From Lachnospiraceae bacterium (GTDB lineage: Bacteria > Bacillota > Clostridia > Lachnospirales > Lachnospiraceae): a stretch of DNA of 45,483 nucleotides. The DNA lies in assembly GCA_017416465.1 (NCBI GenBank), contig JAFQCK010000029.1, positions 1-45,483 on the forward strand, given 5' to 3'. Shown piece after piece: positions 2,744 through 45,483 of the stretch. The notes beneath the pieces were generated by a model. It was not told the origin of the DNA, ran no database searches, and saw only the letters and a list, made by a program, of their open reading frames with translations. How positions within the stretch are numbered: position 1 is the stretch's first letter; each line of letters starts with the position of its first letter. The position numbers and the translations under genes are program-made.

Positions 2744-3529
2744 ATGAATAACGTTAATAAAACTTTATACATACCTTTATATGGAAAAGCTTATGTTAGT
2801 CATAAAGGTATTATTCTGGAAGATAAAAAGGCAGAAGAAATATGGGAGAAGGAAGGATTTAAGTTAAAAGGTAAATCAAAATCAAAGTGGCTTGCATATT
2901 ATATGGGAATGCGTTCAAAAGTATTTGATAACTGGTTGATAGAACAAATGAACAAAGACAAAGATGCAATTATTATTCATATTGGTTGTGGAATGGATAG
3001 CAGAATTAATAGAGTAGGAACTAATAATCATGATTGGTATGATGTCGATTTTCCTAGCGTTATTGATGAAAGAAAGAAGTATTATAAAGAAACTGATAAA
3101 TATCATATGATTAAATCAGATGTACGAGAAAATGATTTAGCTAAAAAGCTTCCTAAAAACAAGAACGCAATTATTGTAATGGAAGGCGTGAGTATGTATT
3201 TTAGGCTCACTGAGCTTAAGAAATTATTGAAAGAATTAGAAACACATTTTAATAAAATAAATATATTAATGGATTGTTATACTGAGTTTGCTGCTAAGGC
3301 TTCAAAGTATAAAAATCCAATTAATGATGTTGGAGTTACCAGCGTATATGGAATTGATAATCCTAAAGTATTAGAAGAGAATACCAATATTATATACATA
3401 AAAGAATATGAAATGACACCTGATAGTTTGGTGAATGAATTAAAAGGTATGGAAAAAATTATTTTTAAGAATGTGTTTGGTGGTGGATTTTCCAAGAAAA
3501 TGTATAGATTGTATGAATTTTGTAATTAA
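2744..3529 (+). CDS. LCMT/PpmA-family class I SAM-dependent methyltransferase
   Basis: The 261-residue protein matches the leucine carboxyl methyltransferase-like family (Ppm1/TcmP type) found in bacterial accessory and secondary-metabolism loci. Near residue 80 is the SAM-binding glycine loop HIGCGMDSR, followed by the acidic ribose-binding strand WYDVDFPSVIDERKKYY, where the DVDxP pattern is diagnostic. Later come a DVRENDL segment and the IIVMEGVSMYFR motif typical of this family. It probably transfers a methyl group to a carboxyl or hydroxyl of a small molecule; the substrate cannot be read from the sequence. SD sequence is weak (TATTGGAGAATAT). The gene appears complete. Confidence 0.8.
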   Translation: MNNVNKTLYIPLYGKAYVSHKGIILEDKKAEEIWEKEGFKLKGKSKSKWLAYYMGMRSKVFDNWLIEQMNKDKDAIIIHIGCGMDSRINRVGTNNHDWYDVDFPSVIDERKKYYKETDKYHMIKSDVRENDLAKKLPKNKNAIIVMEGVSMYFRLTELKKLLKELETHFNKINILMDCYTEFAAKASKYKNPINDVGVTSVYGIDNPKVLEENTNIIYIKEYEMTPDSLVNELKGMEKIIFKNVFGGGFSKKMYRLYEFCN

Positions 3530-3559
3530 TTAAGTATAAAACAGATAAATAAGAAATAA

Positions 3560-3627
3560 TAGGATGGTAACAAATAATAGGTATCCAACTAAAATAAGAT
3601 AATGAATAAGTAGTAGGATGGTAACAA
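3560..3627 (+). repeat. Pair of 14-bp direct repeats upstream of metF
   Basis: TAGGATGGTAACAA occurs at 3560-3573 and again at 3614-3627, 54 bases apart, in the 154-base gap before metF. Flanking AATAA/AGTA-type bases are also similar. It may be a local duplication or a pair of regulator-binding sites. No SAM riboswitch or T-box features are visible in the gap. Confidence 0.5.
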
Positions 3628-3683
3628 GGAACAAATTCGCAATGTATAGCAAATATTGAAAAAAGAAAAGAGAGGTAAAGATT

Positions 3684-4532
3684 TTGACACATACATCACA
3701 TTATAAACAAACATTATCATTAGAGGTATTTCCGCCTAAAAAGGAAGATGAATTTGAAGCTGTGTATGAGCTATTAAATAAGTTCAGCGTTTTAAAACCC
3801 GAATTTATTAGTGTTACTTATGGAGCCGGTGGAAGTAATTCAAAAAAAACAGTAGACATTGCGTCTTATATTCAGAATACATTACATATACCTGCGCTTG
3901 CACATATGACATGTGTAGGAAATAAAAAGGAAGATATTTTAAGTGTATATGAGGAATTAAAGAAAGCTAATGTATCAAAAGTATTAGCACTTCGTGGCGA
4001 CAGACCAAAATATATGAGTGACGAGCAATTTGAAAGTAGGGATTTTGCACACGCAAGTGATATGATTGGCTTTTTAAAAGAAAATACTGATTTAGAGATT
4101 GCAGCAGCATGTTATCCTGAAAAACATCCTGAATCTTTTAGCTTGGAAGCAGATTTACAATTTCTTAAATTAAAACAGGAAGCCGGTGCAGATTCTCTTA
4201 TAACACAAATGTTTTTTGATAATGATGATTTTTATAATTTTAGAGATAAAGCAATTAGAAGAGGTATAACTTTGCCAATTCATGCGGGCATTATGCCTAT
4301 TACAAGTGCAAAGCAAATTGGAACCACAATTTCATTATCAGGCTCAAGTGTTCCGAAAGCACTTGCAGATATTATAGCAAAATATGGAGATAATCCTGAT
4401 GATATGAGAAAAGCAGGTATTGATTATTGTATAAGACAGATTATTGATTTAAAACAAGTGGGCGTAGATGGTATCCATATTTATTCTATGAATAAACCAA
4501 AGACTACAGCTGAAATTGTGGAAGCAATTTAA
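3684..4532 (+). CDS. metF: Methylenetetrahydrofolate reductase (MetF)
   Basis: A 282-residue flavoprotein-type enzyme of full length for bacterial MetF. It reduces 5,10-methylene-THF to 5-methyl-THF, the methyl donor for methionine synthesis. Family features are visible in order: SLEVFPPKKEDE near the N-terminus, FISVTYGAGGSN (pterin/FAD region), AHMTCVG, LALRGDRPK, AACYPEKHPES, and the C-terminal QMFFDNDDFYNF and HAGIMPI motifs. It starts at TTG 3684, eight bases after AGAGAGG; no ATG fits. A second MTHFR domain is encoded at 11187-12998, so the organism appears to carry two. The gene is flanked by accessory genes, without other methionine genes adjacent. Confidence 0.93.
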   Translation: MTHTSHYKQTLSLEVFPPKKEDEFEAVYELLNKFSVLKPEFISVTYGAGGSNSKKTVDIASYIQNTLHIPALAHMTCVGNKKEDILSVYEELKKANVSKVLALRGDRPKYMSDEQFESRDFAHASDMIGFLKENTDLEIAAACYPEKHPESFSLEADLQFLKLKQEAGADSLITQMFFDNDDFYNFRDKAIRRGITLPIHAGIMPITSAKQIGTTISLSGSSVPKALADIIAKYGDNPDDMRKAGIDYCIRQIIDLKQVGVDGIHIYSMNKPKTTAEIVEAI

Positions 4533-4565
4533 AATTTTAATATATATATACGAGGTTACAAAGAT

Positions 4566-4961
4566 ATGATGGATAATAAAGAAATTGTAATAAAATTTTT
4601 TGATGAAGGTTACACAAATAAAAATTATGATTATATAATGGGATGTGTTTCTGAAAATTACTATGACCATAGTCCTGCCAATGCAAGGAGTAATGCAGAT
4701 ACTGTTGGAATCTTAAAATTGGTGGCTGAACAATTTTCGGAATTAAAAGCAGAGGTTATAGATGTATTTGGTGAAAATAATATGGTAGCAGTAAGGGTAC
4801 GATTTGAGGGGATTCATACAGGAATATGTATGGGAATACCGGCAACGGGCAAGAAAATCTCTTTTGAGGCTTTGGAATATTTCAAAGTTAATGATAAGAA
4901 AATTGTGGAATCTTGGGGATACTGGCCAGATAAAGAAATAGAATATAAGCTTCTTAACTAA
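4566..4961 (+). CDS. SnoaL-like (NTF2-fold) protein
   Basis: 131 residues, the usual size for a SnoaL-like/ester cyclase domain. Typical features are the N-terminal helix IVIKFFDEGYTNKNYDYI, the YYDHSP strand, and a second half with VRFEGIHTG, GIPATGKKISFEALEYFKV and IVESWGYWPD, a standard pattern in this cone-shaped fold. Family members include polyketide cyclases and many uncharacterised stress or detoxification proteins, so no substrate can be assigned. It lies 33 bases after metF with an SD-like GAGGTTACAAAG before the ATG, and the truncated DUF1349 gene begins 3 bases after its stop. Confidence 0.8.
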   Translation: MMDNKEIVIKFFDEGYTNKNYDYIMGCVSENYYDHSPANARSNADTVGILKLVAEQFSELKAEVIDVFGENNMVAVRVRFEGIHTGICMGIPATGKKISFEALEYFKVNDKKIVESWGYWPDKEIEYKLLN

Positions 4962-4964
4962 AAA

Positions 4965-5378
4965 ATGATTTTTATAAATCAAAAGAGTGGTGTGGTTATG
5001 TATCTTGACAGTGAAAATTGGTTGAAAGGTTCAATAGAATATGAAAATGAAACCTTTCAACATTTAGGAAGTGTTGTTACAAATAATGGTTATTCTGATT
5101 GGGCAACTACAGAGATTGATGCTTCAATAAAAACAATGTGGTACGGATTTAGTCGTAGAGTTGACGATTATTGCCTTGAATGTTCAGAAGATGGAATAAC
5201 TTATAAACAAATGCGTATTTGTCATATGTGGAATGGCGGTGGTACGGTTCAATTTGGAATTTATGCGTGTAGTCCTGAGAATTCATCATTTAAAGCTACA
5301 TTTACAAATATGGAAGTAACAGAATGTAAATGGTTGGCACACGATGGCCAACAGCCTGATGAGGATTTGAAATTATAA
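4965..5378 (+). CDS. DUF1349-family protein, N-terminally truncated
   Basis: The 137 residues match the C-terminal two thirds of the DUF1349 (concanavalin-like, often YesU-related) family: YLDSENWLKGSIEYEN, SVVTNNGYSDWAT, MWYGFSRRVDDYCLECSEDG, FGIYACSPENSSFKATF. Full-length members are about 190-200 residues, so some 50-60 N-terminal residues (the first strands of the sandwich) are missing. The reading begins mid-domain, 3 bases after the SnoaL-like gene. A start at ATG 4998, following GTGGTGTGG, is equally possible. The start of the gene was probably lost by deletion, and whether the remainder folds is doubtful. It could be a pseudogene. Confidence 0.75.
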   Translation: MIFINQKSGVVMYLDSENWLKGSIEYENETFQHLGSVVTNNGYSDWATTEIDASIKTMWYGFSRRVDDYCLECSEDGITYKQMRICHMWNGGGTVQFGIYACSPENSSFKATFTNMEVTECKWLAHDGQQPDEDLKL

Positions 5379-5421
5379 ATTGATGAGTATATAAATATTT
5401 GAACTAAAAAAGGAATAAGAA

Positions 5422-5859
5422 ATGAATACTACAATAAGAAAGATGAATATAGAAGATAAATATACTGTTATTGAAATGATGAAGGTATTTTATACTTCAC
5501 CGGCAGTGTTAAGTAATGGTTCAGAAGAAATTTTTGAAAATGATGTAGAGAATTGCATAAATGATAGTCCGTATTTAGAAGGATATGTTTTTGAAAATTT
5601 CGAAGAAATACAAGGGTATGCAATGATTGCAAAAAGCTTTTCGACAGAATTTGGTAAACCATGTATTTGGATAGAAGATTTGTATATAAAAGAAGAATAT
5701 AGGAGTATGGGGATTGGAAGCGAGTTTTTTGAGTATATACAAGAGAAATATTTAAATTGTATATTTAGGTTAGAGGTAGAAGAGGAGAATGAAAAAGCTA
5801 TAAGAGTATATAAAAAATGTGGATTTGAAGTATTGCCTTATATGGAAATGAAAAAGTAA
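5422..5859 (+). CDS. GNAT-family N-acetyltransferase
   Basis: A 145-residue GCN5-related acetyltransferase using acetyl-CoA. The family's core is visible: IRKMNIEDKYTVIEMM at the N-terminus, strand 4 IWIEDLYIKEEYR, the pyrophosphate-binding motif A (RSMGIG, about residues 94-99), and the C-terminal NEKAIRVYKKCGFE motif B. Length is normal for a stand-alone GNAT. The acceptor substrate cannot be predicted. An SD, AAAGGAATAAGA, precedes the ATG. It lies 18 bases before the broken phosphatase gene. Confidence 0.88.
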   Translation: MNTTIRKMNIEDKYTVIEMMKVFYTSPAVLSNGSEEIFENDVENCINDSPYLEGYVFENFEEIQGYAMIAKSFSTEFGKPCIWIEDLYIKEEYRSMGIGSEFFEYIQEKYLNCIFRLEVEEENEKAIRVYKKCGFEVLPYMEMKK

Positions 5860-5877
5860 AAGGAGAAGTTTGTATTA

Positions 5878-6451
5878 ATGACAAGTATATATTTCGTTAG
5901 ACATGCAAAACCAAATCACGCCCATGAAGATGATAGAACAAGACCTTTAACAGAAGAAGGTATTAATGATGCAAAGCAAGTTGCAGAGGTACTTTCTGAT
6001 GTAAATTTAAATTATGCCGTATCAAGTCCATATAAAAGAAGTATTGATACAATTAAGGAATGTGTAAAATTACATAATCTTATAGTTGATACTGATGAAA
6101 GGTTTAGAGAGCGTGAAAAAGGTGTTAATGGAAATAATATAGAGATGTTTAATAAGCGTTGGAATGATTTTAATTACCATGAAGAAGGTGGGGAATCACT
6201 AAGAATGGTTCAGGATAGAAATATAGAGGCTTTATTTGAACTTTTAGATAAGCATAAAGACGAGAATATTATTGTAGGAACTCATGGGACAGCGCTTAGT
6301 ACAATTTTTAAATTATTTTGATAATGATTTTTTATGTGAGGAATTTCTTAGAATTATTGATTATATGCCTTATATAATAAGATTAGATTTTGAAGGTAGA
6401 GAATGTGTAGCTAAGGAAGAAATATTAATTGTTGAAAAAGAATATAAATAG
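5878..6451 (+). pseudogene. Histidine phosphatase (phosphoglycerate mutase-like), frameshifted
   Basis: The N-terminus carries the RHG-type catalytic motif FVRHAKPNH, then SSPYKRSIDTI and the second catalytic histidine region IIVGTHGTALS. The frame then stops at TGA 6319. Skipping one T in the run 6305-6309 restores TILNYFDNDFLCEEFLRI, and the reading continues with family-like sequence to TAG 6449-6451. The repaired protein would be 190 residues, a normal length. A single T inserted in a homopolymer therefore removes the last 43 or so residues. The cause could be a real mutation, phase variation or a sequencing error. Both catalytic histidines lie before the break. Confidence 0.85.
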
Positions 6452-6468
6452 GAAACTGAAGTAGGTGA

Positions 6469-6906
6469 ATGTTTATGGAATGGTTAAATATATTTGGATT
6501 AATTTTTATCATTATTATAATGGTTCCAAACATTATATATGCCATAAAATGTAAAGAGGGTTTTGAGAATAAATGTAATAATAAGAAGGTTGAAATGATA
6601 GAACAAATTGGAAGATTTGGTTGTTTTGGCTTTATGATTTTTAATATTCCGGGAACTTGGTTTGGATGGTGGTCTGATGAGGCGTTTGCAATATATTTGA
6701 TTGTAAATGTGATTCTTATAATGGCTTATTGTATAATATGGGTAGTTTGTTTTAAGAAAAATAGTGTTTTTAGAGCACTGGCGTTATCTGTTATTCCATC
6801 ATGTATTTTTTTGTTTAGTGGAATAATGATGAGATCGGTATTGTTGATTATAATGTCAGTTCTTTTTGGACCTAGTCATATTATGATATCTTATAAAAAT
6901 GTTTAA
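6469..6906 (+). CDS. Four-helix membrane protein of unknown function
   Basis: 145 residues with four predicted membrane segments: about residues 6-25, a Gly/Phe-rich GRFGCFGFMIFNIPGTW segment, 82-102, and a C-terminal pair around 107-138. A cytoplasmic loop with Lys/Asn (CKEGFENKCNNKKVEMIEQ) lies between the first two. ATG 6469 and ATG 6475 are both possible; the upstream GTAGGTGA is a modest ribosome site. I think this is a family of small membrane proteins common in Clostridia, but no function is known to me. It lies 17 bases after the broken phosphatase. Confidence 0.7.
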   Translation: MFMEWLNIFGLIFIIIIMVPNIIYAIKCKEGFENKCNNKKVEMIEQIGRFGCFGFMIFNIPGTWFGWWSDEAFAIYLIVNVILIMAYCIIWVVCFKKNSVFRALALSVIPSCIFLFSGIMMRSVLLIIMSVLFGPSHIMISYKNV

Positions 6907-6926
6907 GAAAGTTAGATGTATCATCA

Positions 6927-7265
6927 TTGAAACATAAATTAATAAAAATTATAGGTATGGATAAAAGTATGAAGAATTTTGTTATTTTAGATGAGTTGTT
7001 AAACTCAGATTTGGTTATTTTTTTAATATTTGGAACTATTATAACCTTTATAATAGGATTATTGGTGAAAAAAAGTAAGAAAAAAATTATTGCTACAATT
7101 GTACTATTAATTGTTTATTTTGGTTGCGAAATTTTAATTAAAATACAAAATCATTATATGATGGAATTTTTATTATTGTTTTCAGGGATAATTGCACTTG
7201 GGGGTGTAATAGGTTTTGGAATAAGTATGTTATTTGTACGCAAAAGAAAAGATAAAGGAATATAG
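6927..7265 (+). CDS. Small membrane protein, start uncertain
   Basis: The open frame encodes up to 112 residues with three hydrophobic segments (about LVIFLIFGTIITFIIGLLV, IIATIVLLIVYFG and a C-terminal LLLFSGIIALGGVIGFGISML), each followed by Lys/Arg-rich turns as expected for cytoplasmic loops. TTG 6927 gives the longest reading. ATG 6957 (after ATTATAGGT) or ATG 6969 would remove 10 or 14 residues and are reasonable alternatives. Nothing suggests a specific role. It stops 5 bases before the YbaK-type gene, suggesting co-transcription. Confidence 0.55.
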   Translation: MKHKLIKIIGMDKSMKNFVILDELLNSDLVIFLIFGTIITFIIGLLVKKSKKKIIATIVLLIVYFGCEILIKIQNHYMMEFLLLFSGIIALGGVIGFGISMLFVRKRKDKGI

Positions 7266-7270
7266 AAATT

Positions 7271-7750
7271 ATGAAACAGGAAAAAACAAATGTTATGAGA
7301 ATTTTAGACCAAAGGAAAATTTCATATAAAAGTTATACATATGATTCAAGTGAGGCTATTAGTGGAATTGAAGTAGCTGCATTTTTAAATCAGAACCCTA
7401 AGCACGTCTTTAAAACACTTGTTACGATTGGAGCTTCTAAGAAAAATTATGTGTTTGTTGTTCCGGTTGAAGGTGAACTTAACCTAAAGAAAGCTGCAAA
7501 AGCAGTTGATGAAAAGAAGATTGAGATGATAAAGTCAAAAGAGCTTTTACCTTTAACAGGTTATATACATGGAGGGTGCTCGCCGATAGGTATGAAAAAA
7601 TTATTTACAACTGTTATTGATGAATCAGCAAAAGAATGTGAAACTATAATATTTAGTGGAGGGAAAATAGGATATCAGGTTGAAGTTACGTTAGATGACC
7701 TGGCTAAAGTTATTCCGTTTAGTTTGTATGGTATCTGTGATATGGATTGA
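7271..7750 (+). CDS. ybaK: YbaK/EbsC-type aminoacyl-tRNA deacylase
   Basis: A 159-residue protein with the YbaK fold, which hydrolyses mischarged Cys-tRNA(Pro) in the best-studied members (trans-editing in the cytoplasm). Diagnostic segments are the N-terminal TNVMRILDQRKISYK, VFKTLVTIGA, VVPVEGELNLKKAAKA with the conserved Lys, the GYIHGGCSPIGMKK signature loop and the C-terminal IIFSGGKIGYQVEV. Length is standard. The ribosome site is poor (GGAATATAGAA). It is the last gene of the co-directional accessory string; a good promoter for the next gene begins about 60 bases downstream. Confidence 0.9.
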   Translation: MKQEKTNVMRILDQRKISYKSYTYDSSEAISGIEVAAFLNQNPKHVFKTLVTIGASKKNYVFVVPVEGELNLKKAAKAVDEKKIEMIKSKELLPLTGYIHGGCSPIGMKKLFTTVIDESAKECETIIFSGGKIGYQVEVTLDDLAKVIPFSLYGICDMD

Positions 7751-7813
7751 TTTTTGTAATATACAAATGAATGGTTTTAAATGAAATAGAATAAGTATAT
7801 TTAATCTTTGTAC

Positions 7814-7843
7814 TTGCCATATCCCTTTAACCTATTATATAAT
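7814..7843 (+). promoter_or_regulatory. Sigma-A promoter for the EAL-domain gene
   Basis: TTGCCA (7814-7819) and TATAAT (7838-7843) are separated by 18 bases, a near-consensus vegetative promoter. Transcription would start about 40 bases before the ATG at 7890. Confidence 0.65.
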
Positions 7844-7889
7844 CTAAGTATGTTTTGTCGTGAAAATTTATATAATCGGAGGTGTGTTA

Positions 7890-9788
7890 ATGTTTGTATA
7901 CACACAGGCATGTGGAGTAGTTGTTTTAGGTGTTTTATTAGCATTATTTTATTTAAAACGTTCAAAGATATTCCTTAATACGGAGAAAATATTTATCTTA
8001 ACACTGGTTACCTCGTTATTTGCGAATGTAATAGATATTCTGTGTCAGGTTTTATTATATAATTCATCAGTACCACTATGGATTTCGAGGTTTTTTTGTG
8101 AAACATATCAGATACTTATAATAATGGTATTATGTTGTACTATGATTTATATTTGTCGTGATATTTATGAAGATAATAAGATTTTTGTAAAAAAAATATG
8201 GTTATATATTGTAATTTTTATATTATCGGGAATAGCAATATTTGTTTTACCTGAGAATTTAAGTACTGAACCGGGAAAATTGTATGCATATGGAGTAAGT
8301 GTTACATTTTCATATGCAGTTGCACTGTTTTATATAATTGCGGTTCTTATAAGAGTTAATGTACAGAGTGATAAGATGAATTCTGATAGAAGAGTATCAA
8401 TTAATCTGTGGATGGCGTTATGGATTTTTGTGGCAATTTTTGAAAATATATTTCCTAGTATTTTTGTGGCAGGATTTGCGACTAGTATAGGTGTAATGAT
8501 TTTATATGTTAAACTTGAGAATCCCGGAATGAATATTGACAGACAGAGTGGGTTTTATAATCAGAATGCATTTATGGAATATATACAACAACTTTATGGA
8601 AGTCATAAGAAATTTTCAATGATTATGGTAGTTATAAATGATGATGAAGATGGATTTTATAATCATAAGCTTGAATTAAAAAAAATATCAAAAATTCTTG
8701 ATGCGAATGATACTGTAGTATTTAGAAAAACAGAAGATGAGATTGTTCTTGTGTTTAAAAGCGCTAATGAAGCTAAAGAATGGGGAGCTAACTTTGTAGA
8801 AAGTACATATTTAACTGATGACCCTGATATGATTGCACTTAGAAATGGCTTATGGATAAGTATTGAGGATTCAGAATGGTTTAAAAATTCTGAAGAATTA
8901 ATGTATTTTATTAAATATGCTATATCGCACAGACAAAGTAATGTGGATTCTAAGGCTCGTAATTTTATTAAAGTTAGTAAAGAAATGGTTAGTGAAATGA
9001 GCAACGAAAAGAAAGTTGAGAAAATGATTGTTCGTGCGCTTAAAGAAGATAGAATAGAAGTTTTTTATCAACCGATTTATTCAACAGAGAAAAAAATGTT
9101 TACTACAGCTGAAGCTTTGGTAAGAATAAGAGATATAGATGGGAAAATTGTCCCTCCGGGTGTGTTTATTCCTGTAGCAGAAAGAACCGGTAAGATAATT
9201 GATTTAGGTAATGAAGTGTTCAGACAGGTATGTAAGCTTATAAAAGAGGATAACATTACGAAGTATGGAATAGAATATGTAGAAGTGAATTTATCAGTTG
9301 CGCAGTGTGGTGATTATGCTTTGGCTGAAAATTATATAGCCCAGATGGAGGCACATGATGTTAATCCTAATAACATAAATCTTGAGATTACAGAGTCGGC
9401 GTCGCTTAAGAGTAAAGAAGTACTTCTTGATAATATGAATCGTCTTATTGATTATGGAGTTAATTTTTCACTGGATGATTTTGGAACAGGTCAATCTAAT
9501 CTTAATTACATTGTGGATATGCCGGTAGATATTGTTAAGTTTGATAGAGGTATGATTAATTCATATTTTGCAAATCAAAAAGCAAGACATGTAATGGATG
9601 CGGCGATGCATATGATTCATGGGATGGGGCTAAAAATTGTGTCAGAAGGAATTGAAACAGGCGAACAGTTTGGGAAAATGAACGAACTTGGAATTTCTTA
9701 TATTCAGGGATTTTATTTTTCGAAACCACTGGAGAAACAGGATTTTATTAAATTTTTAATTGAGAATAATAACGTTTCTTATAATTAA
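7890..9788 (+). CDS. Membrane-bound EAL-domain cyclic-di-GMP phosphodiesterase
   Basis: 632 residues. An N-terminal module of about 215 residues has six or seven hydrophobic helices (a membrane sensor). A degenerate GGDEF-like segment (about 222-330, no GGDEF motif) is followed by a complete EAL domain from about residue 389. Catalytic landmarks are intact: AEALVR, EVNLS, EITES, LDDFGTGQSN, VKFDRG, SEGIET and QGFYFSKPL. It should hydrolyse cyclic di-GMP to pGpG at the inner face of the membrane. I chose ATG 7890 because GGAGGTG at 7878-7884 lies 5 bases upstream; the in-frame GTG at 7860 has no SD. It is likely monocistronic: a promoter lies upstream and another precedes the next gene. Confidence 0.9.
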   Translation: MFVYTQACGVVVLGVLLALFYLKRSKIFLNTEKIFILTLVTSLFANVIDILCQVLLYNSSVPLWISRFFCETYQILIIMVLCCTMIYICRDIYEDNKIFVKKIWLYIVIFILSGIAIFVLPENLSTEPGKLYAYGVSVTFSYAVALFYIIAVLIRVNVQSDKMNSDRRVSINLWMALWIFVAIFENIFPSIFVAGFATSIGVMILYVKLENPGMNIDRQSGFYNQNAFMEYIQQLYGSHKKFSMIMVVINDDEDGFYNHKLELKKISKILDANDTVVFRKTEDEIVLVFKSANEAKEWGANFVESTYLTDDPDMIALRNGLWISIEDSEWFKNSEELMYFIKYAISHRQSNVDSKARNFIKVSKEMVSEMSNEKKVEKMIVRALKEDRIEVFYQPIYSTEKKMFTTAEALVRIRDIDGKIVPPGVFIPVAERTGKIIDLGNEVFRQVCKLIKEDNITKYGIEYVEVNLSVAQCGDYALAENYIAQMEAHDVNPNNINLEITESASLKSKEVLLDNMNRLIDYGVNFSLDDFGTGQSNLNYIVDMPVDIVKFDRGMINSYFANQKARHVMDAAMHMIHGMGLKIVSEGIETGEQFGKMNELGISYIQGFYFSKPLEKQDFIKFLIENNNVSYN

Positions 9789-40489: not shown

Positions 40490-42178
40490 ATGTTAGTTAA
40501 CGTAAACGTTAAAAACCTTGCATTAATTAACAAGGTTGATATATTTTTTGATGAGGGACTTAATATATTATCAGGTGAAACAGGAGCCGGTAAATCGATA
40601 ATTATCGGTTCTATTTTAATTGCACTTGGTGGAAAAATACCAAAGGATATTGTTAGAGATAGTGAGAAAGAAGCACTTGTTGAACTGGTTTTTGATGTTC
40701 AAAATGAAGATATTCTTAAAAAAATTGAAGAAGAAGGTATAGATGTAAGTGATGGTAATATTATAATTTCCAGAAAAATTGTTAATGCAAGAAGTACAAT
40801 TAAAATAAACGGAGAAAATATTACATCAACAAAATTAAAGAAAATCACAGAATTATTAATAGATATTCATGGACAGCATGACCATCAGTCACTTCTTAAA
40901 AAAGATAAGCAATTAGAAATACTTGATGATTTTGCTGAAAAAAATCTTTTTGATTTAAAAGAAAAACTTAAAAGTGAATATAATACATATACGTTATTAA
41001 AAAAAGAACTTGATGAGTATAATATTGATGAGGATAAACGATTAAGAGAAATATCCTTTTGCAAATTTGAAATAGAAGAGATTGATAATGCAAATCTTAA
41101 AACCGGAGAATATGATGAATTAAAGTCGATTTATCAGAAAATGGCTTCGTCAAAAAGTATACTTGAAAAAATGAGTGAAGTCTATGATTTGATTGCCGGC
41201 GATGGATATAATTCTGTTTCGGATAAAATCGGTGAAGCGTATAGAATATCCCAGAATGCTTCAAATTTTGATGAAGAAATCAATGGAATTACGGATAGTC
41301 TTGCTGATTTGGAAAGTATTTGTGAAGATACAAAAAGAGCAATAAAGGATTATATTGATTCGATATCGTTTGATGATGAAGAATGCAGACAAAACGAATT
41401 AAGGCTTGATGAATTAAATCGACTTATTAATAAATATGATGTTAATAAGAAAAATGAAGATCCAGTTTTAAATGTTTTAGAATATAGAAATGAGCAAGAA
41501 GAGAAGCTTAATAAATTAGAGAATTATGAAATGAAAAGAAAAGAAATTTTGTCTGATTTAGAGATTTCAGAAGCTAAATTATCAGAGTTGAGTAATAAAT
41601 TAACGGATATTAGAAGAAAATCTTCAGTTGAGTTATCGAAAAATATTGTTAAAGTATTAGAAGGGCTTAATTTTATTGATGTTAAGTTTGATATATTATT
41701 TAAAGAAAAAGAAAATTATACATCAAATGGTGTTGATGAAATTGAATTTATGATATCTACTAATCCGGGAGAAGATGTTAAACCACTTAATAATGTGGCT
41801 TCCGGTGGTGAATTATCAAGAATAATGCTTGGTATTAAGACTATACTTGCTAAAAAGGATGATATTGATACACTTATATTTGATGAGATTGATACAGGAA
41901 TAAGTGGAAGAACTGCGCAAATGGTTGCAGAAAGATTAAAAGAAATAAGTAAATTACATCAGGTTATCTGTATAACACATTTACCACAAATTACATCTAT
42001 GGCAAATAATCATTATCTTATAGAAAAATCTGTTGTGTCGGGTACAACGGAAACTAATATTATAAAATTAGATTATGAACAGTCGGTAGAAGAACTTGCA
42101 AGAATGCTAGGCGGTGTGGAAATTACAGATGCAGTTATAGAAAATGCCAGAGAAATGAAAAAACTTGCTAACAATTAA
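40490..42178 (+). CDS. recN: DNA repair protein RecN
   Basis: A 562-residue SMC-like ATPase acting on double-strand breaks. Walker A is SGETGAGKSIIIG near residue 28; DIHGQHDHQSLL follows; the middle is a long coiled coil (about 160-390); then the ABC signature ASGGELSRIMLGIK, Walker B FDEIDTGISGRTAQM and CITHLPQI. SD TAGGAGGAA. Its last 28 bases (42151-42178), together with the following intergenic bases, are copied again at 43547-43614, after the DUF4143 gene. So this copy keeps a normal C-terminus (REMKKLANN) and the repeat preserves the gene end. Confidence 0.96.
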   Translation: MLVNVNVKNLALINKVDIFFDEGLNILSGETGAGKSIIIGSILIALGGKIPKDIVRDSEKEALVELVFDVQNEDILKKIEEEGIDVSDGNIIISRKIVNARSTIKINGENITSTKLKKITELLIDIHGQHDHQSLLKKDKQLEILDDFAEKNLFDLKEKLKSEYNTYTLLKKELDEYNIDEDKRLREISFCKFEIEEIDNANLKTGEYDELKSIYQKMASSKSILEKMSEVYDLIAGDGYNSVSDKIGEAYRISQNASNFDEEINGITDSLADLESICEDTKRAIKDYIDSISFDDEECRQNELRLDELNRLINKYDVNKKNEDPVLNVLEYRNEQEEKLNKLENYEMKRKEILSDLEISEAKLSELSNKLTDIRRKSSVELSKNIVKVLEGLNFIDVKFDILFKEKENYTSNGVDEIEFMISTNPGEDVKPLNNVASGGELSRIMLGIKTILAKKDDIDTLIFDEIDTGISGRTAQMVAERLKEISKLHQVICITHLPQITSMANNHYLIEKSVVSGTTETNIIKLDYEQSVEELARMLGGVEITDAVIENAREMKKLANN

Positions 42179-42218
42179 CAGTTTTAAAAATCTTCACTAA
42201 CATATAATTAATATAAGA
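42151..42218 (+). repeat. 68-bp direct repeat, left copy (recN end plus intergenic)
   Basis: Starts AGAAATGAAAAAACTTG and ends ATATAAGA. It matches 43547-43614 at 67 of 68 positions (C versus T in GCTAAC/GTTAAC). The left copy contains the genuine last codons and stop of recN. Confidence 0.95.
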
Positions 42219-42240
42219 ATATTATATTTGACGATAAGTA

Positions 42241-42287
42241 ATAAATGTCAATTAAGTTCGTTTGTAACGAACTTAATTGACATTTAT
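42241..42287. repeat. Perfect 22-bp inverted repeat with 3-base loop
   Basis: The arm 42241-42262 is exactly complementary to 42266-42287; the loop is TGT. It lies inside the insert, about 38 bases before the ATPase start. No T run follows the right arm, so it is not a standard terminator. It may be a regulatory hairpin, a protein-binding palindrome or a recombination site. Confidence 0.85.
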
Positions 42288-42324
42288 GTGATTAAGTCTT
42301 ATAATTAAATTGAGGTGAATGGCT

Positions 42325-43527
42325 ATGATAAAGAGAGAAAAATATTTATCAAGAATTAGAGGTTTTTATCATAAAGACTTGATAAAAGTAATTAGCGGAA
42401 TAAGACGTTGCGGAAAATCTATATTATTAACACAAATTATAGATGAACTTAAAGAACAAGGAATAAGTGAAAAACAAATAATATACATTAATTTTGAAGA
42501 CTATGATTATTCATTTATAAAAACAGGTAATGATTTTCATGAATATGTAAAAGATAGAATATTAATAAATGAAAAAAATTATCTTTTTTTTGATGAAATA
42601 CAAGTTATACAGGAATTTGAAAGGGTAATAAATTCTTTAAAAGTAAAATATGATACAAGTATATTTATAACAGGATCTAATGGAAAACTATTATCAGGTG
42701 AATTAGCAACATTTCTAGCCGGCAGGTATGTTTCTTTTTCGTTATATCCTTTTTCATTTTCAGAGCTTTGTGAGTTAAAGAAAATTGATAAATCGAAAGT
42801 TACTGATGAAATCTTATATGAATATATGATTTGGGGTGGTTTGCCACAACGTTTTTCTTTGGAAAGTGAGGAACAGACAAAGACGTTTTTAAGAGATGTT
42901 TATGATGCAATTGTATTGAGGGATATTATACAGAGAGCAGGAGTTAAAGATGTTGAATTATTCGGAAGAATTATAGAATATTTAGTATGTAACCCGTCAC
43001 AGTTATTTTCACCACAATCTATGTCAGATTATTTTTTGAGCATAAACAGAAAAGTTTCAAAAGAGACTATATATAATTATCTTGAACATATAACAACATC
43101 TTTGATTATGTCTAAGGTTTCACGTTATGATATACGTGGAAAAAGAATTTTAACCAAATTGGATAAATATTATTTAACAGATATGGGACTGGGAAGAATT
43201 AGAAATTCCGGATTTAAGCTTGAAATGGGGGCGTTACTTGAAAATGTTGTATATAACGAATTATTAAGTAGAGGATATGATGTTTATGTTGGAAAAACAA
43301 GAAATGGAGAAATAGATTTTGTTACAATTAAAGATAATTTAAAAGAATATTATCAGGTTGCTTATTATCTGTATGATGAAAATGTAATTGAAAGAGAATT
43401 TGGGGCATTTAATAACGTGCCTGATAATTATCCCAAATATGTATTATCATTTGATAAGATGGATTTTTCCAGAGATGGAATTATTCATAAAAATATATTG
43501 GATTTTTTATTGGATAATAAGTATTAA
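42325..43527 (+). CDS. AAA-family ATPase with DUF4143 C-terminal domain
   Basis: 400 residues. N-terminal P-loop ATPase: Walker A SGIRRCGKSILL (Gly25-Ser32), INFEDYDY, Walker B YLFFDEIQ (about 87-94), sensor FITGSNGKLL and RYVSFSLYPFSFSEL. C-terminal DUF4143 part with LENVVYNELLSRGYDVYVG and GEIDFVT before KEYYQVAY, resembling a PD-(D/E)xK nuclease core. These proteins are very common and patchily distributed in bacteria; their cellular role is unsettled, with defence or DNA-related roles suspected. I chose ATG 42325, seven bases after GAGGTG; ATG 42319 is too close. It interrupts the conserved recN-spoIVB pair and is flanked by 68-bp repeats. Confidence 0.9.
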   Translation: MIKREKYLSRIRGFYHKDLIKVISGIRRCGKSILLTQIIDELKEQGISEKQIIYINFEDYDYSFIKTGNDFHEYVKDRILINEKNYLFFDEIQVIQEFERVINSLKVKYDTSIFITGSNGKLLSGELATFLAGRYVSFSLYPFSFSELCELKKIDKSKVTDEILYEYMIWGGLPQRFSLESEEQTKTFLRDVYDAIVLRDIIQRAGVKDVELFGRIIEYLVCNPSQLFSPQSMSDYFLSINRKVSKETIYNYLEHITTSLIMSKVSRYDIRGKRILTKLDKYYLTDMGLGRIRNSGFKLEMGALLENVVYNELLSRGYDVYVGKTRNGEIDFVTIKDNLKEYYQVAYYLYDENVIEREFGAFNNVPDNYPKYVLSFDKMDFSRDGIIHKNILDFLLDNKY

Positions 43528-43546
43528 CGAATAAATATAATTCTAA

Positions 43547-43614
43547 AGAAATGAAAAAACTTGTTAACAATTAACAGTTTTAAAAATCTTCACTAACATA
43601 TAATTAATATAAGA
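43547..43614 (+). repeat. 68-bp direct repeat, right copy
   Basis: The second copy of 42151-42218, placed just before spoIVB. It still encodes EMKKLVNN and the stop of recN out of context, which shows the direction of duplication. Whatever promoter or leader spoIVB used in the intergenic DNA should be retained here. Confidence 0.95.
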
Positions 43615-43643
43615 GATTAATTATGTGAGAGGTGGAGATTTTT

Positions 43644-44867
43644 TTGAGTAGAAAGGGGTATAGAAGACTTCTATTAGCTTTTTTTGTTTTTTCAATAATA
43701 TTTGCAGTATTTTTTGTAAGATATTTGTTTGATAAAGAAATACCGGATGAGGTTAAAGTATTTTATGGTGAAGATGTGGTAATTAAATCTGAACTTCCAA
43801 TATCTTATTCAATTTCACAGAACGAAAAAGAAGTATCTATATTAAATAATACTTCAAAAGAAAACTATTATTATGTTCAGACAAAACTTTTTGGGGTAAT
43901 TCCGGCAAAAAAAGTTAAGGTTCAAGTGCTTGAAAATGTTAAACTTATACCTTGTGGATGTCAGATAGGAATTTATCTTCATACGAAAGGTGTTTTGGTT
44001 ATTGACACTGACGAAGTAAAAGATATTAATGGAAATGTATTAAGTCCGGCAAAAAATATTATTATGCCTGATGATTATATAATAGCCTTAAATGATATTA
44101 CAGTAAGTACTAAGTCACAACTCATTTTCCTGATAAATAAATATGGAAAAGAAGATATAGTTTTAAAAGTTAGAAGAAATAATGAAATTATAAGTGTAAA
44201 GGTTAAACCGGTATCAACCGGAGTAAACGAGTATAAGGCAGGAATTTGGGTAAGAGATGATTCGCAAGGGATTGGTACTCTAACTTACATTGATGAGAAT
44301 GGTAACTTTGGTGGTCTTGGACATGGGATAAATGATATTGATACCGGAAAGTTATTAGATTCAAAAAATGGGATTTTGTATAGTGCCAATATTTGGGGAA
44401 TTAATAAAGGTGAAGAAGGAACTCCCGGAGGACTTCTTGGCTCTATAGAATATGAAAAAGATAATGAGCTTGGAGAAATTACAAGAAATTCTGATTGTGG
44501 AATATTTGGAATTGGCAATAGTACTTTGTTGAAAGAATATAGTGGAAAATATGAATCTATGGAAGTTTGTTTACGTCAGGATATAAAAAGAGGTACTGCA
44601 TATATTAGAACTGCTTTAGATGGTGAAGTTAAGGATTATGAAATTAGAATAATAAATGTAGATTATTCTAATGAAATTAAGAATAAGGGAATGGAAATTC
44701 AGATTACGGATATTGAATTGCTTAAACTTACGAATGGGATAGTTCAAGGGATGTCGGGCTCGCCAATTCTCCAAAATGGGCGAATTGTGGGTGCTGTTAC
44801 ACATGTTTTAGTGAATGACCCAACTAGGGGTTATGGGATTTTTATAGAGAATATGCTGGAGCATTGA
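43644..44867 (+). CDS. spoIVB: SpoIVB, PDZ-containing S55 serine peptidase
   Basis: 407 residues with an N-terminal membrane anchor (about 7-24), a PDZ domain (about 110-190, DDYIIALNDITVSTKSQL and VLKVRRNNEIISVKVKP) and the SpoIVB peptidase domain with His227 in GGLGHGIND and the catalytic Ser373 in GMSGSPIL. Secreted from the forespore, it cleaves SpoIVFA to trigger sigma-K processing in Bacillus. I chose TTG 43644, seven bases after GGTGGAG; GTG 43632 overlaps that SD. Recognition is certain. It normally follows recN directly; here the DUF4143 insert separates them, and spo0A does not follow. Confidence 0.95.
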   Translation: MSRKGYRRLLLAFFVFSIIFAVFFVRYLFDKEIPDEVKVFYGEDVVIKSELPISYSISQNEKEVSILNNTSKENYYYVQTKLFGVIPAKKVKVQVLENVKLIPCGCQIGIYLHTKGVLVIDTDEVKDINGNVLSPAKNIIMPDDYIIALNDITVSTKSQLIFLINKYGKEDIVLKVRRNNEIISVKVKPVSTGVNEYKAGIWVRDDSQGIGTLTYIDENGNFGGLGHGINDIDTGKLLDSKNGILYSANIWGINKGEEGTPGGLLGSIEYEKDNELGEITRNSDCGIFGIGNSTLLKEYSGKYESMEVCLRQDIKRGTAYIRTALDGEVKDYEIRIINVDYSNEIKNKGMEIQITDIELLKLTNGIVQGMSGSPILQNGRIVGAVTHVLVNDPTRGYGIFIENMLEH

Positions 44868-44993
44868 GTCCAAGCAGAAAGCGAAAATAGCAGACAGAGT
44901 GAGCTCGCTCACAGGCTGTTCTGCTATTTTTGATTTCTATTTGGCGAAAGCCAAACACTGAGGAAATGCGAAGCTTTTCGAAGTGGCTTGGAC
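44868..44993 (+). ncRNA. Multibranched structured RNA or MITE-like element after spoIVB
   Basis: GTCCAAGC (44868-44875) pairs exactly with GCTTGGAC (44986-44993) and encloses three hairpins. Hairpin 1 (44884-44930) has AAAATAGCAG/CTGCTATTTT, ACAG/CTGT and GTGAGC/GCTCAC. Hairpin 2 (44940-44955) is TTTGGC-GAAA-GCCAAA with a GNRA-type tetraloop. Hairpin 3 has CACT/AGTG around CGAA-GCTT-TTCG. The stretch is GC-rich for this genome. It begins at the base after the spoIVB stop. A small non-coding RNA, a 3' UTR element or a mobile inverted-repeat element would all fit. Confidence 0.55.
44884..44931 (+). terminator. Probable intrinsic terminator of spoIVB
   Basis: The first hairpin of the structured element. 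Its left arm begins AAAATAGCAG and its right arm ends CTGCTATTTTT, with the T tract inside and after the stem. It lies 17 bases past the spoIVB stop. Confidence 0.6.
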
Positions 44994-45066
44994 AGAAAGA
45001 TTAAGAAAAATAAGGACGAGTTATGTTGGGAGCAACAAAAATTCGCCCATTTTATGGAGGAGAAAA

Positions 45067-45462
45067 ATGAATAAATTTATACCATTATCAAGTTTAAAGG
45101 ATACAACAGGAATTGTTGAATTATGTAAAAAGGCAGGTGAGCCTGTAGTGGTAAACAGAAATGGAGAACTTAAATTAGTTATTATGACAAAGGATATTTT
45201 CAATGAATATTTTCGGATTAGAAAACCAAACGGAGAATTAGATATTGAGAAGGAATATTTTGGAATAAAAAATCAGAATTATGAATTAGAGGCAATCACG
45301 ATTCAAAAACTAAAAAATCCGGCAGAGATTGTAAGAATATGTGAAAGCATTGATATGCCGTTTCCTATCATAAGAAATGGTTATGATGAATTGTATGTAA
45401 TGAGTTATAGGGAGTACATGAGAAGAAAAGCAGTTATAACGTTTGTGAAAAAGACTTTTTGA
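45067..45462 (+). CDS. Phd/YefM-like antitoxin-type protein with two tandem repeats
   Basis: A 131-residue protein from ATG 45067, behind GGAGGAGAAAA; in-frame codons further upstream lie inside the structured element. Residues about 4-48 (IPLSSLKDTTGIVELCKKAGEPVVVNRNGELKLVIM) follow the Phd/YefM pattern: a strand, a short helix, GEPVVVNRNG and another strand. Residues about 78-125 repeat it (IQKLKNPAEIVRICES, FPIIRNGYDELYVMSYREYM). Single Phd domains dimerise on operator DNA and neutralise Doc or RelE-type toxins; here two copies are fused. No toxin gene is visible before the window ends. It may be an orphan regulator. Confidence 0.65.
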   Translation: MNKFIPLSSLKDTTGIVELCKKAGEPVVVNRNGELKLVIMTKDIFNEYFRIRKPNGELDIEKEYFGIKNQNYELEAITIQKLKNPAEIVRICESIDMPFPIIRNGYDELYVMSYREYMRRKAVITFVKKTF

Positions 45463-45483
45463 AACAAAACACAGAAACAAGCA

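Follow-up and report, generated by a model that had tools for sequence, protein, structure and literature searches.

A lone DUF4143 ATPase gene between recN and spoIVB of a Lachnospiraceae bacterium: probable single-gene insertion with duplication of 68 bp of host DNA

The right end of a 45,483-nt contig from a Lachnospiraceae bacterium (JAFQCK010000029.1 of assembly GCA_017416465.1, here G000; the whole contig is referred to as the window) carries a gene for an AAA_14-DUF4143 ATPase between recN and spoIVB. Our analysis indicates that this gene is most probably an acquired single-gene unit, inserted between recN and spoIVB with duplication of 68 bp of host DNA. The assembly is a 3.7-Mb draft in 172 contigs with 5% contamination.

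All genes at the right end of the window lie on the forward strand, in the order argR-like gene, recN (40490-42178), DUF4143 open reading frame (ORF; 42319-43527) and spoIVB (43632-44867). The first-pass annotation of the window had reported a direct repeat around the DUF4143 gene, and we recovered it unchanged: positions 42151-42218 and 43547-43614 are identical at 67 of 68 nucleotides, with the copies 1396 nt apart. The match between the two flanks (E about 4e-33) is beyond chance. The left copy is composed of the final 28 nt of recN, including its stop codon, and 40 nt of the recN-spoIVB spacer, as far as the loop of a hairpin in that spacer; the right copy begins 20 nt past the DUF4143 stop codon and enters the spoIVB leader. 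Between the copies lies a unit of 1328 nt (42219-43546, forward strand), consisting of the DUF4143 ORF with a 100-nt leader that holds a promoter and 19 nt of 3' sequence, and nothing else. Both neighbours are left whole, as the annotation had stated: recN (SMC_N/AAA_23 by Pfam) and spoIVB (Peptidase_S55, E 3e-81). The spoIVB ORF was taken from GTG 43632; an alternative start, TTG 43644, is a better fit to the ribosome-binding site.

The search of eight same-genus relatives revealed a spoIVB match in six (G001 and G004-G008; G002 and G003 gave none). In all six, recN is followed directly by spoIVB and the DUF4143 gene is absent, which bears out the view that a single gene interrupts a conserved junction; the order argR-recN-spoIVB, read from translations, is shared with G004-G006. 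When the left flank of the window, one copy of the repeat and the right flank were joined, the resulting sequence aligned with five of the relatives, and the empty, one-copy junction foreseen in the first-pass annotation is thus found in these five; the sixth, G007, was outside this alignment and was folded instead. Because relatives without the insert hold a single copy (five aligned), the 68-nt repeat is host DNA that was duplicated by the insertion. The sole difference between the copies is a C in the left one and a T in the right one. Since the empty site of G005 carries the T, it is probably the left copy that changed after insertion.

These relatives also bear on two other histories. A tandem duplication of the spacer could have come first, with the gene entering later between the copies by unrelated means, and the sequence of one locus taken alone is compatible with this. 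We regard such a two-step origin as very improbable: none of the five aligned relatives has an empty duplication, and the same two events would have to recur independently at the many loci described below. An assembly artefact is hardly credible. The window does come from one contig of a fragmented and slightly contaminated draft, yet its flanks are unique, the two copies differ at one position, and two assemblies of one project (loci L094 and L099, below) have one repeat at the same site. A query with positions 42140-43640 against the window's own genome gave no further place besides the gene's own palindrome among the 40 of 201 candidates scored; this is a weak test of the repeat because of that partial scoring and because the second copy was not listed separately.

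The spacer hairpin (43582-43643, forward strand) has 25 pairs, is followed by T residues and overlaps the spoIVB ribosome-binding region with its 3' arm. It folds far better than shuffled sequence in the window (z -6.0) and in the empty site of G005 (z -6.3), and a comparable recN-spoIVB hairpin was found in the other five relatives, which were folded without shuffles, and thus in all seven genomes examined. The repeat ends inside the hairpin loop, so that only the right copy keeps the hairpin whole. Since the right copy retains the complete structure, DUF4143 transcripts can end before spoIVB, and we infer that they likely do so. The same hairpin may serve to terminate recN transcription and also to mask the spoIVB start.

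Other DUF4143 genes flanked by duplicated host gene ends, for which the first-pass annotation had suggested a search, do occur. For each gene, 600 nt upstream were compared with 400 nt downstream by blastn (same strand, E below 1e-6). Genes short of either length, runs of N and repeats of an already counted gene were excluded, which reduced the enlarged set from 203 to 183 genes, the second set from 67 to 53 and the viral set from 64 to 50 (9 duplicates); the viral genes have no 200-nt stretch in common with the genome sets. The counts exclude loci L009, L039, L047 and L048 (the window itself) and retain doubtful loci. Control ORFs had 250-650 aa in the sets of 179, 201 and 75 ORFs, and 150-650 aa in the 24-ORF and spacer-matched sets; the 201-ORF control includes loci fetched for spoIVB, Sir2-like and VanY genes rather than for DUF4143.

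In the first set, 15 of 108 DUF4143 genes had flanking repeats; for other ORFs taken from these loci the figure was 1 of 179. The enlarged set gave 19/183 as against 1/201 ORFs, 0/23 Fic genes and 0/22 hsdS genes; the second set, from a class-wide search, 4/53 as against 0/24; and viral contigs 6/50 as against 2/75. After pooling, a flanking repeat was present at 29 of 286 DUF4143 genes, about one in ten, and at 3 of 300 control ORFs, which came mostly from the same loci (p=5e-7). With related loci counted once the figure is 25/282 (p=6e-6); loci L451, L453 and L458, for example, form a single related group. The difference persisted when an upstream spacer of at least 100 nt was required in both groups (24/243 and 3/233, p=3e-5), and two of the three spacer-matched control hits fall in L097, a locus that is itself already affected. 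Repeat length ranged from 21 to 165 nt across loci.

The repeats are host DNA and not part of the DUF4143 unit. Flanks of the same gene matched each other in 19 of 183 cases, while flanks of different genes matched in 38 of 33,306 ordered pairs, mostly from related loci (e.g., L070, L074, L076, L078 and L087) and none of them involving the window. An attachment sequence borne by the element should recur wherever the gene sits, so this comparison excludes it and leaves without support the proposal of the first-pass annotation that the unit had integrated as a circle that brought a target copy with it.

Some integrases target the 3' ends of genes and of tRNAs, and the window resembles their products in having the host gene's 3' end on both sides and the host gene whole. 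A site-specific integrative element, whose attL and attR would be the repeats and whose integrase would be missing because the element is a satellite or a deletion remnant, is also suggested by repeats at the 3' ends of recN, a pilin-like gene and terL, and at the end of a tRNA-Thr gene (L340), a classical integrase target. We nevertheless consider it improbable, given that each locus has its own repeat sequence, that repeat length is variable, and that the window insert has one ORF with no recombinase profile and no integrase. An insertion sequence with a DDE transposase would leave a fixed short stagger, which the length of the duplication excludes; the sole ORF has no transposase profile, and on these features, with the ends compared by eye, the unit is not such an element. 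The absence of a transposase noted in the first pass holds for the ORFs of the window inspected by eye, four of which were named by profile search. An AT-rich resemblance between unit ends, taken by eye for terminal inverted repeats, was not seen in L082 and was dropped.

The duplicated sequence is often the 3' end or the terminator of the upstream gene. At the orthologous loci L094 and L099 it is the 3' end of a pilin-like gene, and the next gene encodes a D-Ala-D-Ala carboxypeptidase. A gene end plus terminator was duplicated at L168 and L097 (by eye), the last 49 of 76 nt of the tRNA-Thr gene plus 17 nt beyond at L340, a terminator together with the initial codons of a VanY-family gene at L159 (best match beyond its own genome 52% over residues 66-228), and a 31-nt terminator-like hairpin at L376. 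The duplicated gene at L124 has a weak dockerin match, below Pfam's cut-off. The repeat at L003, which lies in the window's own genome, was considered as a possible dispersed repeat, and this was rejected because it has just two occurrences there (17 of 17 candidates scored). In L097, at about 5100-8100, the terminator is present in three copies that separate the upstream gene, small membrane-protein genes and the DUF4143 gene, as if several units had been inserted at one terminator.

The position of the repeats relative to the DUF4143 gene is also biased. In 17 of the 29 cases no more than 20 nt separate the DUF4143 stop codon from the downstream copy, and in L097, L163, L376, L388 and L426 the copy abuts the stop codon. 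This rule was seen in the enlarged first set (10/19) and recorded before the further sets, which gave 2/4 and 5/6; a binomial null for it is only a rough guide, since terminators are to be expected close to stop codons in any case. Nine of the 19 repeats of the enlarged first set fold far better than shuffles (z below -2), and seven of these nine end within about 6 nt of the hairpin (distances by eye). The mean fold z was -2.9 for all 19 repeats and -0.1 for 48 control windows.

A second empty site was found in a phage. Contig L426 has the order Fic ORF, short ORF, terL, DUF4143, second DUF4143 and portal, and a 118-nt repeat (93%) holding the 3' end of terL follows immediately on the stop codon of the first DUF4143 gene; L427 is the same. 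Among the best 80 terL relatives, none had a DUF4143 match in the stretch fetched for it; a few of these stretches reach only a short way beyond terL (0 nt for L505, 114 nt for L478 and 133 nt for L522). A portal match was present in 72 of these 80, within 100 nt of terL in 39. The remaining 33 have longer terL-portal gaps, and this junction may therefore accept other insertions too. The two adjacent DUF4143 genes of L426 occupy 2977-5978, and the same phage contig has a third DUF4143 gene elsewhere (L441), beside a gene for a C-5 cytosine methylase.

Site diversity is high even among close relatives of the window gene. The clade comprises 14 genes, the window gene and 13 relatives with 72-80% identity, which occupy 11 different sites when a site is defined by the two closest ORFs to the left and to the right. 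Sites are shared by three pairs, among which L052 and L054 agree on the upstream side only and L053 and L057 on the downstream side only. The neighbours of the clade genes include those for mnmA, pyruvate kinase and peptidyl-tRNA hydrolase.

The protein encoded at 42319-43527 (forward strand; start at 42319 or 42325) matches PF13173 (AAA_14, E 3e-34) and PF13635 (DUF4143, E 3e-17) in Pfam, and PDLC04787 (PDC-S01) in PADLOC over residues 2-400 (E 1e-146). Its own genome has 18 DUF4143 matches, some of them partial. We take COG1373 to be the COG of the AAA_14-DUF4143 family. According to excerpts of published work, COG1373 is listed among genes that gut genera have in common (PMC10782964), and PDC-S01, an ATPase fused to a PD-(D/E)XK domain, ranks as the fourth most common defence across prokaryotes, validation being pending for most PDC candidates (PMC12988326). 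In rumen genomes, PDC-S01 is given as the most frequent single locus (excerpt of PMC13356809). It is the same family as the window protein, and the excerpts of both reports treat it as a defence candidate and are silent on its mode of insertion (PMC12988326, PMC13356809). The window type differs in the nuclease motif (EIDFV...QVAY), since it has Q-x-A where distant paralogues have E-x-K and therefore lacks the lysine. Applied to 203 genes, the motif pattern found Q-x-A in 74 of them and E-x-K in 9; another 86 escaped it, and in some of these E-x-K is visible by eye.

Upstream of the ORF lies a 22-bp perfect inverted repeat with a 3-nt loop (42241-42287; RNA fold z -9.2), and a promoter-like pair read by eye, TTGACA and TATAAT with a 17-nt spacer (42277-42305, forward strand), has its -35 box, TTGACA, within the right arm of this palindrome. 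The simplest reading of the sequence is that the palindrome would be an autoregulatory operator. Its arm, CGAACTTANTTGACA, has the window gene as its sole place in the own genome (up to one mismatch). Small non-autonomous copies of the palindrome were considered and dropped, as the arm occurs elsewhere in the genus at only three places, with one mismatch each. Within the clade of 14, the upstream dyads of six genes (the window, L050, L051, L052, L054 and L081) beat all 20 shuffles and those of eight did not; a AACTTACTTGACA-like arm is readable by eye in some of these eight.

Taken together, our results show insertion of a promoter-plus-ORF unit with target duplication of variable length. The mechanism that we propose would begin with a unit of about 1.3 kb, made of operator/promoter and ORF, ending just after the stop codon and carrying no recombinase. 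A pair of staggered nicks or breaks, separated by tens of bp, would open the target, the unit would be joined in, and filling-in would copy the stretch between the breaks; alternatively, copying may have left the target and re-entered it upstream by template switching. The breaks would often fall at a terminator hairpin or a gene 3' end, so that the new copy would keep both neighbours whole and give the ORF a terminator. The source of the breaks could be the DUF4143 protein itself, an AAA+ ATPase whose C-terminal part would be a domain of the PD-(D/E)XK superfamily; this is plausible but unproven. The benefit to the host would likely be phage defence.

Class C group II introns are known to target terminators. 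The window insertion, beside a terminator hairpin, is like them in this respect and unlike them in that its sole ORF encodes an ATPase and its target is duplicated. The promoter lies inside the unit, and for this reason a copy of the unit's own transcript is unlikely.

The same insertion and duplication could have arisen as an accident of host repair, the difference lying in the agent only. Illegitimate template-switching repair with backward jumps would have placed the DUF4143 gene as a passive passenger, later selected for defence. We give this nearly an even chance. It accords with the variable repeat length, with unit ends that show no conservation by eye and with the missing E-x-K lysine of the window type, and selection would account for the bias to harmless sites. 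It sits less well with the rarity of the feature elsewhere, in other ORFs (3/300), in ORFs with comparable spacers (3/233) and in Fic and hsdS genes (0/45). The family bias argues for some role of the DUF4143 protein, and the lack of the lysine in the window type argues against simple cleavage. A further proposal, that PDC-S01 is a self-mobile one-gene element whose protein nicks at terminator hairpins or gene 3' ends, inserts the unit and borrows the duplicated host terminator, seems to us rather doubtful.

Several observations weigh against the explanation proposed here. No flanking repeat was detected by the blastn test at 257 of the 286 DUF4143 genes. Ten of the 12 plasmid loci lacked one; repeats were found at two, the repeat of L251 is the same as that of L012, and a weak Treponema pair lies outside the set limits. 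The Fic and hsdS control taken alone is small (0/45, p=0.02). L429, with the same terL insertion as L426, has only a 31-nt repeat (84%), which is below threshold and was counted as a miss. The repeats of L012 and L129 hold a palindromic repeat of the CCTGACAC type, and L375 resembles dispersed repeats. In L057 the repeated sequence is an internal mnmA fragment, located on the side opposite to that expected of a simple duplication. The gene at L096 is broken, and L070 and L076 share sequence across genomes. L023 was given up as a clean duplication within a Sir2-like gene, since a paralogue comparison made two Sir2-like ends equally likely; its repeats may be the ends of two paralogues, and the Sir2 match is below Pfam's cut-off. 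Conserved unit ends were not seen by eye. With Q-x-A in place of the E-x-K of distant paralogues, the window protein may have lost cleavage. Finally, the window is a single contig of a draft in 172.

Beside these loci, we observed that L172 and L023 have different DUF4143 genes, each with the 3' end of a Sir2-like gene within 20 nt past the stop codon. The end of the window beyond spoIVB (44868-45483) has an inverted repeat and an ORF for a Phd/YefM-like antitoxin (45067-45462), after which the contig ends. In G004 and G006 the gene downstream of spoIVB is spo0A-like, and in G005 two other genes intervene before spo0A. A 5.6-kb contig of the window's own assembly (L268, G000:C3) has two large ORFs of no known family followed by a spoIVB copy, the last 38 codons of spoIVB at about 5231-5344, 89% identical; it may stem from a different strain or from a further insertion with duplication of a spoIVB 3' end.

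Nobusato in 2000 and Furuta in 2010 reportedly described insertion of restriction-modification genes with long target duplication. Excerpts of several papers describe 'insertion with long target duplication' from a comparison of Helicobacter pylori genomes, often with restriction-modification genes (PMC3031569, PMC1643837, PMC3154945, PMC4978471). The DUF4143 insertions are like these in having a defence-type gene, a long target duplication of variable length and absence from a related genome: the window has a 68-nt repeat (67 identical) and an empty one-copy site (6/6 relatives without the insert, five aligned), and lengths elsewhere are 21-165 nt. They are unlike them in that the unit is one ATPase gene with no methylase, in that gene 3' ends or terminators are frequent within the repeats, which often start at the stop codon, and in that they also occur in viral contigs. 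The window insertion thus works like the long-target-duplication mode, yet is no restriction-modification case. The first-pass annotation had envisaged a new kind of one-gene mobile unit; the one-gene insertion and its recurrent layout stand, whereas the novelty of the mode does not, since excerpts of the earlier work already describe long variable target duplications for restriction-modification genes (PMC3031569, PMC1643837, PMC3154945). In excerpts of the open-access literature we found no account of target duplication for the AAA_14-DUF4143 family.

At the window site the footprint looks fresh, with one difference in 68, and both the unit and its target are defined. The survey adds a rule by which a unit stops at or close to its stop codon and inserts, in many cases, at the 3' end of a gene or at a terminator. 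These observations bear on the question of how lone genes such as PDC-S01 spread without a transposase. Were the protein to make the breaks, a single gene would unite defence ATPase-nucleases with transposition; if it does not, a general repair route would move single genes. Should PDC-S01 prove to be self-mobile, its abundance in bacteria, archaea and phages would be explained by autonomous movement and not by defence alone.

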